NCBI RefSeq assembly: GCF_900169565.1
Contig: NZ_LT828648.1
Coordinates: forward strand, 932,876 to 996,875
Reading direction: 5' to 3'
DNA from: Nitrospira japonica
Lineage (GTDB): Bacteria; Nitrospirota; Nitrospiria; Nitrospirales; Nitrospiraceae
DNA: 64,000 bases
Shown here: in pieces, positions 49,455 through 62,458 of the stretch
Position numbering within the stretch: position 1 is the first letter of the stretch
Layout: each line of letters opens with the position of its first letter
Notes under the pieces: model-generated
What the model was told of the DNA's origin: nothing
Databases searched by the model: none
What the model saw: the letters and a program-made list of their open reading frames with translations, nothing else
Program-made: the position numbers and the translations under genes

Positions 49455-49802
49455 GGGGGCGACCGGTTTCGACGGGGATACTGACGCCATCGGTGCATGT
49501 CGAGCTCTCGGGGACTCGTAAAACTCCGGGAAAATGCAACTGCCAATCAAGAACTGGCACTCGCAGCTTAATCAGCTGTGACGTCGTTCCATCTGAGGCC
49601 CGCGGGGGTGGAATGGCGCGATGCAGCGGGCTGGTCCAACGCCGGTGCTCAGCGGCGAAGGACGAGAACATTCTGGGCTAGCGGCCGTTCTAAGCCTGCC
49701 GATGGGCGTGGGTGGCCGCGAAATTTAAACTATCGGCTACACATGTAGATCCGGTGTGCCGACGATCTTCGGACAGGGGTTCAACTCCCCTCGCCTCCAC
49801 CA
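49455..49802 (+). ncRNA. ssrA: transfer-messenger RNA (tmRNA)
   Basis: A 348-base tmRNA that rescues stalled ribosomes with SmpB. The 5' end GGGGGCGACCGGTTTCGACG is the standard start, and its first seven bases pair with the CGCCTCC of the 3' end (one G-U pair). The T-arm GGACAGGGGTTCAACTCCCC and an encoded ACCA tail close the molecule. The tag reading frame lies at about 49536-49571, ending ALAA and TAA (49569-49571); depending on the resume codon the tag is ATANQELALAA or a shorter or longer form. Pseudoknot stems, e.g. GCGGCC...GGCCGC near 49681, follow. Confidence 0.95.
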
Positions 49803-58846: not shown

Positions 58847-59197
58847 ATGAGTCTTGCGGACAACAAGTGCGTGCCCTGCCGGGGCGGAGTGCCTCCGGTG
58901 CCGAACGATCGGGCGCAAGCGCTGCTCAAGGAGCTGGGCCGAGGCTGGGGAATCAATACGCAGGGCCACCTCGAACGGCTCTACACATTCGCGGATTTCG
59001 CTCAGGCGCTGACCTTCGTCAACAAGGTCGGGGCTGTCGCGGAAGCGGAGGGCCATCATCCGGATCTCCATTTGGCCTGGGGAAAATGCACGGTAGAAGT
59101 CTGGACGCATAAGATCAATGGGCTGACAGAGAGCGATTTTTATCTCGCGGCGAAGGCCGACCGTGAGTTCGGCTTGTTGAAGCCGTCAGCGAATTAG
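58847..59197 (+). CDS. pterin-4a-carbinolamine dehydratase (PCD/DCoH-like)
   Basis: A 116-aa enzyme that dehydrates 4a-hydroxytetrahydropterin in pterin recycling. The family motif HHPD followed by aromatic/Val-rich strands and TH is seen in AEGHHPDLHLAWGKCTVEVWTHKINGL. The N terminus has CVPCRGGVPP, typical of bacterial members. ATG 58847 follows GAGGAGG. It sits 39 bp before the radical SAM gene, though no aromatic-amino-acid hydroxylase gene is near. Confidence 0.93.
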   Translation: MSLADNKCVPCRGGVPPVPNDRAQALLKELGRGWGINTQGHLERLYTFADFAQALTFVNKVGAVAEAEGHHPDLHLAWGKCTVEVWTHKINGLTESDFYLAAKADREFGLLKPSAN

Positions 59198-59236: not shown

Positions 59237-61090
59237 ATGAGCGATAAGGCGGAGGTGGCCCTTGTCAACATGCCGTTCAGCTACTCGAAGTACCCCTCGA
59301 TTCAGCTCGGCACGCTCTCGGCTCTTTTGAAATCCCAGGGCATTCCCGTCGATTGCCACCACCTCAACGTGCGCTTCGCACACAAGATCGGGGTGGCGCT
59401 CTATGAACTGATCTGCGAGAAGCGTGCGCTCTTCGGGGAGTGGATCTTTTCGTACCTCCTGTTTCGCGACAATCCCAAGCGAGCAGAATATCCGAGGGTG
59501 TTCAAACCGGTGTTCGAGCAACTCGCCCGGGAGAGCGGGCATGCGAGCGGGTATTTCGAGGATATGGCCGTCCGCACGGCCCCGCAGTTTCTGACCCAGG
59601 CGCTCACCGCGATCGATTGGGGGCAATACCGTCTCGTCGGCTTCACGTCGACCTTCGATCAGAACGTGGCCAGCCTGACCATGGCAAAGCTGATCAAGGA
59701 CCTCTACCCGTCGGTCACGATCGTTTTCGGCGGCGCGAACTATGACGGTGAAATGGGCCTTGAATATTTCCGGGCATTTCCGTTCATCGATCATGTGGTC
59801 GTCGGCGAAGGAGAGGAGAGTTTCCCGCGCCTGGTCCGCAAGGTGCTGGGCGGGCAGCCATCGGGGTATCCCAATGGCATCGCGTATCGTGAGGGAGGCG
59901 ACATCCGTCTGTCCCCCAATACGTCGCTCTTTTCGGATTTCGCCAAGACGGGCCCCCCTGATTATGACGATTACTACCGTCTCCTGGCCGAATTGGGTGA
60001 AGCTTCACAGGGATTGGATCGCATCCTCCTCTACGAAGGCTCACGGGGTTGCTGGTGGGGTGAGAAGCACCACTGCACGTTCTGCGGTCTGAACGCACAG
60101 AGCATGAAATTCCGCGCCAAGTCGTCGGAGCAGGTGGCGCAGGAAATGGCCTACCTGTCGCATCGCTACGACACCGCGAGGTTCAGGCTGGTCGACAATA
60201 TCATCGACATGAAATATATCGAGAACCTCTTCGGAAAATTCGCGGCGTTCCACTGTGATCTGGATGTCTTCATCGAGACCAAGAGCAATCTTCACAAGAG
60301 CCAAATCCGCACGCTGGCGGTAGGCGGGGTCAAGTGCATGCAGCCCGGACTGGAATCCTTGAGCCTCAATCAGTTGAAGGCCATGGACAAGGGCGTGACC
60401 CCGATGCAGAACATCGTATGCCTGAAATGGAGTTTTTATTATCGAGTGGCCGTGTCTTGGAACATTCTCCTGGGATTCCCCGGCGAGACGAACGAAGACT
60501 ATCGCCGTCAACTCGAGGTGATTCCGTCGCTCCTGCATCTCCAGCCGCCTGAATCGACCGGAAAGCTCTGGCTGGAGCGATTCAGTCCGTATTTCATGAA
60601 ACCGCAGGAGTATGGCGTGCGGATCACAGGGCCTGGGACCGCCTACGAATATGTCTACGACGCGCGTCTGGTCGACCTCAGGAAGATCGCGTACGATTTC
60701 GAATATGAATTGGACGACTGGACGGTCGATCCGCACGTCTATCAGGAACTGGTGTCGGCGATCGACGGCTGGCGACGCGTACATGCTTCGAACGACCGGC
60801 CGTTCTTGTACTATTCCAAGGCGTTGAATTACGTGACGGTGTACGATGGCCGAACTCCCGGTTCCCCCGTCCGTCGGCGATACGACGGCCTGGCGGGACA
60901 GGTGATCGAAATCTGCAATGAAGCAGCCAAAAGCATCGAACAGATTCGGTCGGCTCTCGCCCGCGATCCCGGGAGCACAGAGGATGAACCTTTGGATCCG
61001 GTGCTGGCGGAGCTGACCGCCCGGCGCATCCTCTACGAAGAGCGTGGAAAGTACTTCACATTGGCCATCCCCGAACATCCATACCTCTAG
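59237..61090 (+). CDS. B12-binding radical SAM protein, RiPP-maturase type
   Basis: A 617-aa protein. Residues about 1-220 form a cobalamin-binding-like domain (ALVNMPFSYSKYPSIQLGTLSALLKSQGI, then FGGANYDGEMG and HVVVGEGEESFPRLV). Residues about 270-500 are the radical SAM core, with the motif GCWWGEKHHCTFCGLNAQSM, which is the CxxxxxxxCxxC form. It matches the group annotated as RiPP maturation radical SAM C-methyltransferase. The C-terminal 100 residues are an extra helical domain. It follows the pterin dehydratase by 39 bp. No precursor peptide of a known leader type is evident nearby. Confidence 0.85.
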   Translation: MSDKAEVALVNMPFSYSKYPSIQLGTLSALLKSQGIPVDCHHLNVRFAHKIGVALYELICEKRALFGEWIFSYLLFRDNPKRAEYPRVFKPVFEQLARESGHASGYFEDMAVRTAPQFLTQALTAIDWGQYRLVGFTSTFDQNVASLTMAKLIKDLYPSVTIVFGGANYDGEMGLEYFRAFPFIDHVVVGEGEESFPRLVRKVLGGQPSGYPNGIAYREGGDIRLSPNTSLFSDFAKTGPPDYDDYYRLLAELGEASQGLDRILLYEGSRGCWWGEKHHCTFCGLNAQSMKFRAKSSEQVAQEMAYLSHRYDTARFRLVDNIIDMKYIENLFGKFAAFHCDLDVFIETKSNLHKSQIRTLAVGGVKCMQPGLESLSLNQLKAMDKGVTPMQNIVCLKWSFYYRVAVSWNILLGFPGETNEDYRRQLEVIPSLLHLQPPESTGKLWLERFSPYFMKPQEYGVRITGPGTAYEYVYDARLVDLRKIAYDFEYELDDWTVDPHVYQELVSAIDGWRRVHASNDRPFLYYSKALNYVTVYDGRTPGSPVRRRYDGLAGQVIEICNEAAKSIEQIRSALARDPGSTEDEPLDPVLAELTARRILYEERGKYFTLAIPEHPYL

Positions 61091-61208
61091 ATTCCCTCTG
61101 TGGCGTCGGCAACGTGTCAGCGGCGTCCGTCCGTGCGCGGATCAACCAAATGGTTCAGCCGGAATGACTCGGTTTTCGAGGAGAAGATGCCCGACGGGGA
61201 TCCCGTTC

Positions 61209-61490
61209 CTAGGCATTACTGGGCGGATCGGAATCGGCCTGAGAGAGAATTTGAGAAAATCGGTGCCCCACGATTCCGGCTACTTTTCCCATGAGATCAG
61301 TGACTTCCTGCCATTCATTGGGGAGCAAGTCTTGTTTCAGCTGCGGGTGAATCGCCCACTGGGCATCGACCTGTGACCCCTTGCGGCTGACCTGAACTCG
61401 AAGCAATTCGACCTCCGAGACGGTCGATTCTTCGGCGGGCGGGGACGGATTACCGTTCGATTGTCCTGAGGGAGGCACTGACCTGGCCAT
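61209..61490 (-). CDS. hypothetical protein, 93 aa
   Basis: A small soluble protein with AAAGGAG eight bases before the ATG at 61490. The N-terminal 25 residues are Pro/Ser-rich (VPPSGQSNGNPSPPAEE). A compact domain follows: VELLRVQVSRKGSQVDAQWAI then LLPNEWQEVTDLMGKVAGIVGHRFSQIL, which looks like strands and an amphipathic helix. No Cys is present and Trp/His are few. The gene is convergent with the radical SAM gene and on the same strand as the phosphatase gene behind it. I do not recognise the family. Confidence 0.6.
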   Translation of the reverse strand: MARSVPPSGQSNGNPSPPAEESTVSEVELLRVQVSRKGSQVDAQWAIHPQLKQDLLPNEWQEVTDLMGKVAGIVGHRFSQILSQADSDPPSNA

Positions 61491-61636
61491 GCATCGCACT
61501 CCTTTCACACGAATGTCTCCGGATCATACTCCATCGTCCTCGCTGCTGTACATGATGCCCGAACGTCCGAAGAGACGAGAGCAGAATCGGGCGCGGAGCC
61601 GCCAGGTCCTGTCGTGACCGGCCGGACCTGTCGTGA

Positions 61637-62458
61637 TCAGGAAGTGGGTCGGGTGTTTTGTCGGAGCAGTCCCAGCATCGCCGGGTGGATCAACCGGTTG
61701 CTGGCCACCAATTCTTTTCCGTAGATCGAATGGGTGCCGCCCGCGAAATTCGTGACAATGCCTCCCGCTTCGGAAAGAATGACGATTCCCGCGGCCATGT
61801 CCCAGGGGCTCAATCGCACTTCCCAGAATCCATCGAATCGTCCGGCCGCCACGTAACAGAGGTCAAGGGCTGCGCTTCCCGTTCGGCGAAGCCCCTGTGC
61901 CTTGAGGGCGAAGCGGGCAAAGTGGTCAAGATTGTTATTGGCGGTTTCCCGAATGTCATACGAGAATCCGGTGACCAGGAGCGCACGATCCAGATGATCG
62001 ACGCGCGAGACGGCAAGAGGGGTTCCGTTGAGACGCGCCCCGGCGCCGGCTTGAGCCGTAAACAATTCGTTTCTGGTCGGATCGAAGACGACGCCGATGA
62101 GGCCGGTTCCATCGCGCTCTACGCCGATCGAGACGCTGTAGAAGGGAAACCCGTGGGCGAAATTGGTCGTCCCGTCCAGCGGATCGACGATCCATTGATA
62201 GCGGGACGGTATTTGGACGACCGGCCCCTGCTCTTCCGAAAGAATCCGATGGGACGGAAACCGGCTGCGGATGTGTTCGAGAATGCATCGCTCCGCCGCC
62301 CGGTCGGCGTCGGTCACGAGGTCAATCGCATTCTTGTGCTCGATGCGGAAACCGGTCTTCGCATAGCTCAAAAGCAAGGCTCCCGCCTGCTTGGCCGCTT
62401 CGACTGCCTCCGTCATCAACTGGTCCGGGGAAATGTCTTCTGACTCTGTGGGGAGCAT
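61637..62458 (-). CDS. inositol monophosphatase family protein (SuhB-like)
   Basis: A 273-aa metal-dependent phosphatase of the IMPase family, 20-30% larger than the minimal fold and typical of bacterial SuhB/CysQ-like members. Motif 1 is WIVDPLDGTTNFAHG, the metal-binding Asp-x-x-Asp-Gly-Thr. ILSEEQG supplies the earlier Glu. The second motif is LSPWDMAAGIVILSEAGG. It is cytoplasmic and acts on inositol-1-phosphate or related sugars or nucleotides. A start at 62416 (MTEAVEAAKQ) would also be possible. Confidence 0.92.
   Translation of the reverse strand: MLPTESEDISPDQLMTEAVEAAKQAGALLLSYAKTGFRIEHKNAIDLVTDADRAAERCILEHIRSRFPSHRILSEEQGPVVQIPSRYQWIVDPLDGTTNFAHGFPFYSVSIGVERDGTGLIGVVFDPTRNELFTAQAGAGARLNGTPLAVSRVDHLDRALLVTGFSYDIRETANNNLDHFARFALKAQGLRRTGSAALDLCYVAAGRFDGFWEVRLSPWDMAAGIVILSEAGGIVTNFAGGTHSIYGKELVASNRLIHPAMLGLLRQNTRPTS

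Follow-up and report, generated by a model that had tools for sequence, protein, structure and literature searches.

The window analyzed here, a stretch of 64,000 nucleotides from Nitrospira japonica, encodes a B12-binding radical SAM enzyme of a RiPP-type family, whose usual task is the modification of small, antibiotic-like peptides, although its spread across genomes is that of a housekeeping gene. The reading that best fits the data is that of a domesticated RiPP-type C-methyltransferase acting on a peptide or protein substrate. A fuller version of it, in which the domesticated maturase has turned into a core enzyme with the nitrite oxidoreductase (NXR) complex as its most likely target, is one we put forward tentatively, as a possibility to be pursued.

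Identity and architecture of the enzyme

ORF calling on the window gives a frame of 617 aa with an ATG start at positions 59237-61090 of the forward strand. Its product matches the NCBIfam profile TIGR03975 (rSAM_ocin_1, 'RiPP maturation radical SAM C-methyltransferase') over the full length and with 593 bits, compared to a curated cut-off of 281.85. The protein contains GCWWGEKHHCTFCGLN, exactly the motif quoted in the earlier note, which had described a B12-binding radical SAM enzyme with a RiPP-maturase signature; the profile match bears this description out. The features that characterize the family, i.e.: the GCWWG..CxFCGLN motif, a B12 domain, and three cluster cysteines, are all present, and from its membership of TIGR03975 the enzyme is predicted to have C-methyltransferase activity. 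With Pfam, the radical SAM domain scores above its cut-off and the B12-binding domain (PF02310; residues 112-199, positions 59570-59833, forward strand) slightly under it (29.5 vs 32.1 bits), while both domains are matched in 43 of the 43 family members scanned (E<=0.1). The iron-sulfur cluster cysteines C272, C280, and C283 (60050-60085, forward strand), spaced CX7CX2C in the window protein, are unchanged in 43 relatives.

The AlphaFold model of the enzyme is confident (pLDDT 91), and the closest solved structures are OxsB, TsrM, AprD4, MgmA, CysS, and TokK. MgmA is among the top matches (Z 18.0 over 366 residues, model residues 6-520). Downstream of this region, residues about 520-610 (60794-61066, forward strand) are modeled with the strand and helix order of a winged helix of the PqqD/RRE type. 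A profile built from 40 C-termini gives weak matches to PqqD and TbiB1 among other, unrelated weak ones, and Pfam PqqD is matched by 11 of 40 family members at E<=1 (best 5e-4). Because the C-terminus of the window protein itself gives no PqqD match with Pfam, we regard this domain as a probable, not a proven, RRE. Since a PqqD/RRE-like domain has been retained, the substrate is likely to be a peptide or a protein.

The locus is not a recognizable RiPP cluster

The earlier note had seen no nitrile-hydratase-leader or Nif11 peptide near the enzyme, and wider searches agree with it: no local precursor was found, and Nif11 and NHLP leaders, the two known types covered by our genome-wide searches, are absent from the genome of the window (4.08 Mb, one contig) as well as from 12 further genomes of its family. 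NHLP leaders are present in two genomes of family f2; two genomes from other Nitrospirales families give Nif11-type matches, of which one exceeds the cut-off. Precursors of the type found at sister loci gave only chance-level matches in the window. Across 56 loci no precursor-like conserved small ORF adjoins the enzyme; the small-ORF survey found just three products recurring beside it in many genera (the pterin dehydratase, a 93-aa protein, and a peroxidase-like protein), and many of the other clusters of small ORFs look to us like shadows, antisense or out of frame, cast by genes that are conserved. The locus is hence not recognizable as a RiPP cluster. In many relatives the peroxidase-like gene (TIGR04169) separates the enzyme from the 93-aa gene; the gap left in the window, 61090-61209, is too small for it.

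The 93-aa product had been proposed as a nearby precursor candidate. Its gene lies on the reverse strand at 61209-61490, starting at the ATG at 61490, and an upstream GTG would extend it to 99 aa (61209-61508). It is a conserved neighbor, with homologs at the same place in Nitrospiraceae and family f2, yet comparisons of homologs, loss loci, and models all speak against it as a precursor. The N-terminus of the family is variable and the C-terminal part conserved, which is the reverse of a leader/core arrangement. Modeled with a mean pLDDT of only 68, the protein begins disordered and continues as a small domain of a beta-hairpin and two helices; no fold match to this model was found in the PDB. 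Stretches related to the protein lie inside longer open frames, mostly of 281-376 codons, and the one that we read fully is a 284-aa protein. The gene also outlasts the enzyme, staying in place in a subgroup of genus g2 from which the enzyme has disappeared. A profile comparison with the leader peptides of sister loci gave a probability of 0.3%, which is weak evidence because over-long starts were aligned and the precursor profile has only three sequences. We rejected the 93-aa protein as a dedicated precursor, and it is very improbable that it serves the enzyme as precursor peptide at all.

An order-wide, vertically inherited core gene

The enzyme is present in 192 of the 235 genomes of the order Nitrospirales (133 of the 153 good-quality ones), mostly in single copy, and in all seven members of the genus of the window. 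Orthologs within Nitrospirales are 60-92% identical, and cultured Nitrospira moscoviensis (L167) carries one with 82% identity to the window protein. When 198 genomes were sampled from the phylum, orthologs of at least 60% identity turned up in two Nitrospirales families only, and three other genomes have relatives that are only 33-35% identical; the order-wide search adds a third enzyme-bearing family, f33. In a tree of 95 family members the Nitrospirales enzymes form one fully supported clade (support 100) on a long stem (0.87); the gene is inherited vertically as a core gene of the whole order. A nearer outgroup could have been missed, since the tree sequences were ranked by their similarity to L086. 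In two genomes of genus g2, G284 and G285, the best matches to the enzyme are far weaker (E 2e-82 and 2e-94); these are perhaps true RiPP-type copies, and the syntenic place holds no ortholog (L256, L260).

The clade is nested among TIGR03975 sequences, some with precursor-like genes at their loci. A Nif11 precursor above its cut-off is found at L143, and ORFs with a common leader-like N-terminus at L149, L157, and L158. The enzyme thus groups inside the RiPP-type family. Some RiPPs have precursors unlinked to their maturase genes, and the main rival to the domestication reading is that the enzyme matures a ribosomal peptide encoded elsewhere, perhaps yielding a signal, or a peptide-derived redox cofactor comparable to PQQ or mycofactocin. 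Family membership, the position of the clade among precursor-bearing loci, and the retained RRE-like domain are all in its favor, and peptide-derived cofactors encoded by core genes have been described (PMC3023750). Given the lack of Nif11 and NHLP leaders in the whole genome and of precursor-like small ORFs beside the enzyme in the 56 loci, we consider such an unlinked peptide somewhat unlikely. Among the three options that the earlier note had listed (a new type of precursor, a precursor elsewhere, or another substrate), another substrate is the best supported.

Co-occurrence with nitrite oxidoreductase

With presence defined as E<=1e-250, NxrA is found in 163 of the 235 Nitrospirales genomes. 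Comparing the two lists, we count 147 genomes with both enzyme and NxrA, 45 with the enzyme only, and 16 with NxrA only. Among the genomes seemingly without NxrA that were searched again, seven contain nxrA fragments, several of them at contig ends. NXR of at least 83% identity occurs in the same families as the enzyme, and both are absent from the class-mates sampled. The near-universal conservation of the enzyme in nitrite oxidizers suggests a physiological role linked to nitrification. As the distribution is shared by whole clades, it amounts to few evolutionary events. Co-occurrence is not strict: G292, a closed genome in which nxrA is present twice, and the near-complete G193 have NxrA and no enzyme. 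We also looked, residue by residue, for a site in NXR that would track the presence of the enzyme, and discarded this idea: no residue separates enzyme-bearing from enzyme-less genomes in NxrA (36 vs 13 rows) or in NxrB (31 vs 10).

Gene neighborhood and loss of the enzyme

The neighbors named in the earlier note (a pterin dehydratase, the 93-aa protein on the opposite strand, and an IMPase) are all located as it described. The pterin-4a-carbinolamine dehydratase gene (58847-59197, forward strand; PF01329, 100.6 bits) lies 39 bases upstream of the enzyme and is a conserved neighbor in most of the order. The inositol monophosphatase family gene (61637-62458, reverse strand), characterized through NCBIfam and Pfam profiles and neighborhood comparison, is also conserved, and it is kept where the enzyme has been lost. 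Such a loss is seen in a subgroup of genus g2, with remnants of the enzyme in G172 and G258. The loss loci retain the 93-aa gene, the inositol phosphatase, LpxC, and the pterin dehydratase, except for the G258 locus, where the dehydratase was not found. In most of them (L253, L254, L256, L258, L259, L260, and L262) the slot of the lost enzyme is filled by a gene with an FGE-sulfatase-like start, assigned by eye. In the genome of the window, nxrA copy 1 has a further FGE-like gene, also assigned by eye, ~400 bp upstream of it (L230 10030-10968). In one genus of family f33, a cytochrome c gene lies just upstream of the enzyme. Elsewhere in the window, a tmRNA gene with the tag peptide ANQELALAA occupies positions 49455-49802.

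The adjacent dehydratase raises the question of whether the enzyme methylates a small molecule, for example a pterin, with the dehydratase as its partner. The dehydratase gene is directly 5' of the enzyme in most of the Nitrospiraceae genera and in all the f2 loci examined, which would agree with this role; it is nevertheless not adjacent in family f33 and in several other genera, and it stays in place after the loss of the enzyme. A TIGR03975 relative on a Streptomyces globosus plasmid (L179 7716-9920), 39% identical to the window enzyme, is part of a pheganomycin-type cluster in which an amino acid could be the substrate. That relative adjoins dihydroxyphenylglycine genes and a precursor annotated as belonging to the pheganomycin family; the window locus lacks all of these. 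With the RRE-like domain favoring a peptide or a protein, a small-molecule substrate appears improbable.

Linkage to nxr and molybdenum genes

The gene context of the enzyme in other lineages points to NXR or to molybdenum. In genera g8 and g97 (L081 and L202), nxrA, nxrB, and the enzyme gene directly adjoin one another and are followed, on the same strand, by p109 and p128. The closed genome of L233 has p109 and p128 behind nxrAB but no enzyme there, and p109 is also found 3' of nxrAB in several other loci. Neither of these two small genes, p109 and p128, has a Pfam or NCBIfam match (L081 7481-8275, L202, L233). The identity of NxrA and NxrB is our own assignment, made from matches to DMSO-reductase type II subunits, a Tat signal, and NxrA copies that are 84-94% identical in N. 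moscoviensis and other Nitrospirales. A third genus, g7, offers a suggestive case: in G149 the enzyme is immediately preceded, at a contig end, by an ORF homologous (50% identical over 50 residues) to the gene that comes directly after nxrB copy 3 in the genome of the window.

In five genera (g4, g7, g96, g98, and g112) the next gene after the enzyme encodes a regulator whose match (E 1.6e-65) falls in the C-terminal part of a protein of molybdopterin biosynthesis; behind it comes a relative of ModA that scores just under its curated cut-off (59.3 vs 62.5 bits). A peptidyl-prolyl isomerase precedes the enzyme in g4, g98, and g112, and a homologous one is found in g7 close to tatC, upstream of nxrA. 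Linkage to nxr is lineage-specific, the nearest nxr copy in the genome of the window being 111 kb away from the enzyme, and the linkages to nxr and molybdate genes may represent only a few evolutionary events.

These data also allow for an enzyme that acts on some other molybdenum enzyme, or on a general protein, with the nxr linkage being accidental. The molybdate genes of the five genera, with no nxr on the same stretch, and the NXR-bearing genomes that have no enzyme are what one would expect in such a case. Yet no particular target is indicated, and the enzyme sits within the nxrAB-p109-p128 order in two genera, and we judge a protein target of this kind to be distinctly unlikely. Because the enzyme is found in or next to the nxr operon in some lineages, NXR is a testable target, and NXR or a maturation partner is the leading, still unproven, single candidate, drawn from gene context only.

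A proposed role for the domesticated maturase

We propose that a RiPP-type B12-dependent radical SAM C-methyltransferase was captured once by the ancestor of nitrite-oxidizing Nitrospirales and became a core enzyme of the lineage. Its RRE-like domain would bind a peptide segment and SAM would methylate the cobalamin, following the chemistry of the superfamily (e.g. that of Mmp10 on methyl-coenzyme M reductase). A 5'-deoxyadenosyl radical would then take a hydrogen from an unactivated side-chain carbon, which would receive the methyl group from methylcobalamin. The target would most likely be the NXR complex, where NxrA, NxrB, or an operon partner would be altered while still in the cytoplasm, ahead of Tat export. 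As the enzyme gene has been lost from some lineages with NXR, such a modification would be an advantage rather than a necessity. The specific claim that NXR carries a C-methylated residue installed by this enzyme is, taken by itself, unlikely. We found nothing relevant in the literature searched, be it about NXR and radical SAM methylation or about RiPPs of Nitrospira.

The window enzyme resembles other TIGR03975 maturases in its full-length profile match, its motif, its B12 domain, and, probably, its RRE-like C-terminus. It differs in that no leader gene of a known type adjoins it, in that its genome contains neither a Nif11 nor an NHLP leader, and in being a vertically inherited core gene of a whole order. 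A precedent for protein C-methylation is Mmp10, which acts on methyl-coenzyme M reductase (PMC8828468). Mmp10 and MgmA are both B12-dependent radical SAM C-methyltransferases that modify this lineage-defining catabolic enzyme. The model of the window enzyme is structurally close to MgmA, yet the enzyme belongs to another sequence subfamily than these two, and NXR as its target is suggested by gene context only.

The automatic RiPP-maturation name would file this enzyme as a natural-product gene. If NXR is modified, a central step of the nitrogen cycle is affected by a post-translational modification that has so far escaped notice, and if this modification is a methylation, it would parallel, in bacteria, the one that methyl-coenzyme M reductase undergoes in methanogens. 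If a peptide cofactor is made instead, a cofactor new to science bears on that same step. NXR is the key enzyme of Nitrospira-type nitrification. N. moscoviensis, which is in culture, carries the gene for the window's methyltransferase-like enzyme, so either reading can be tested.
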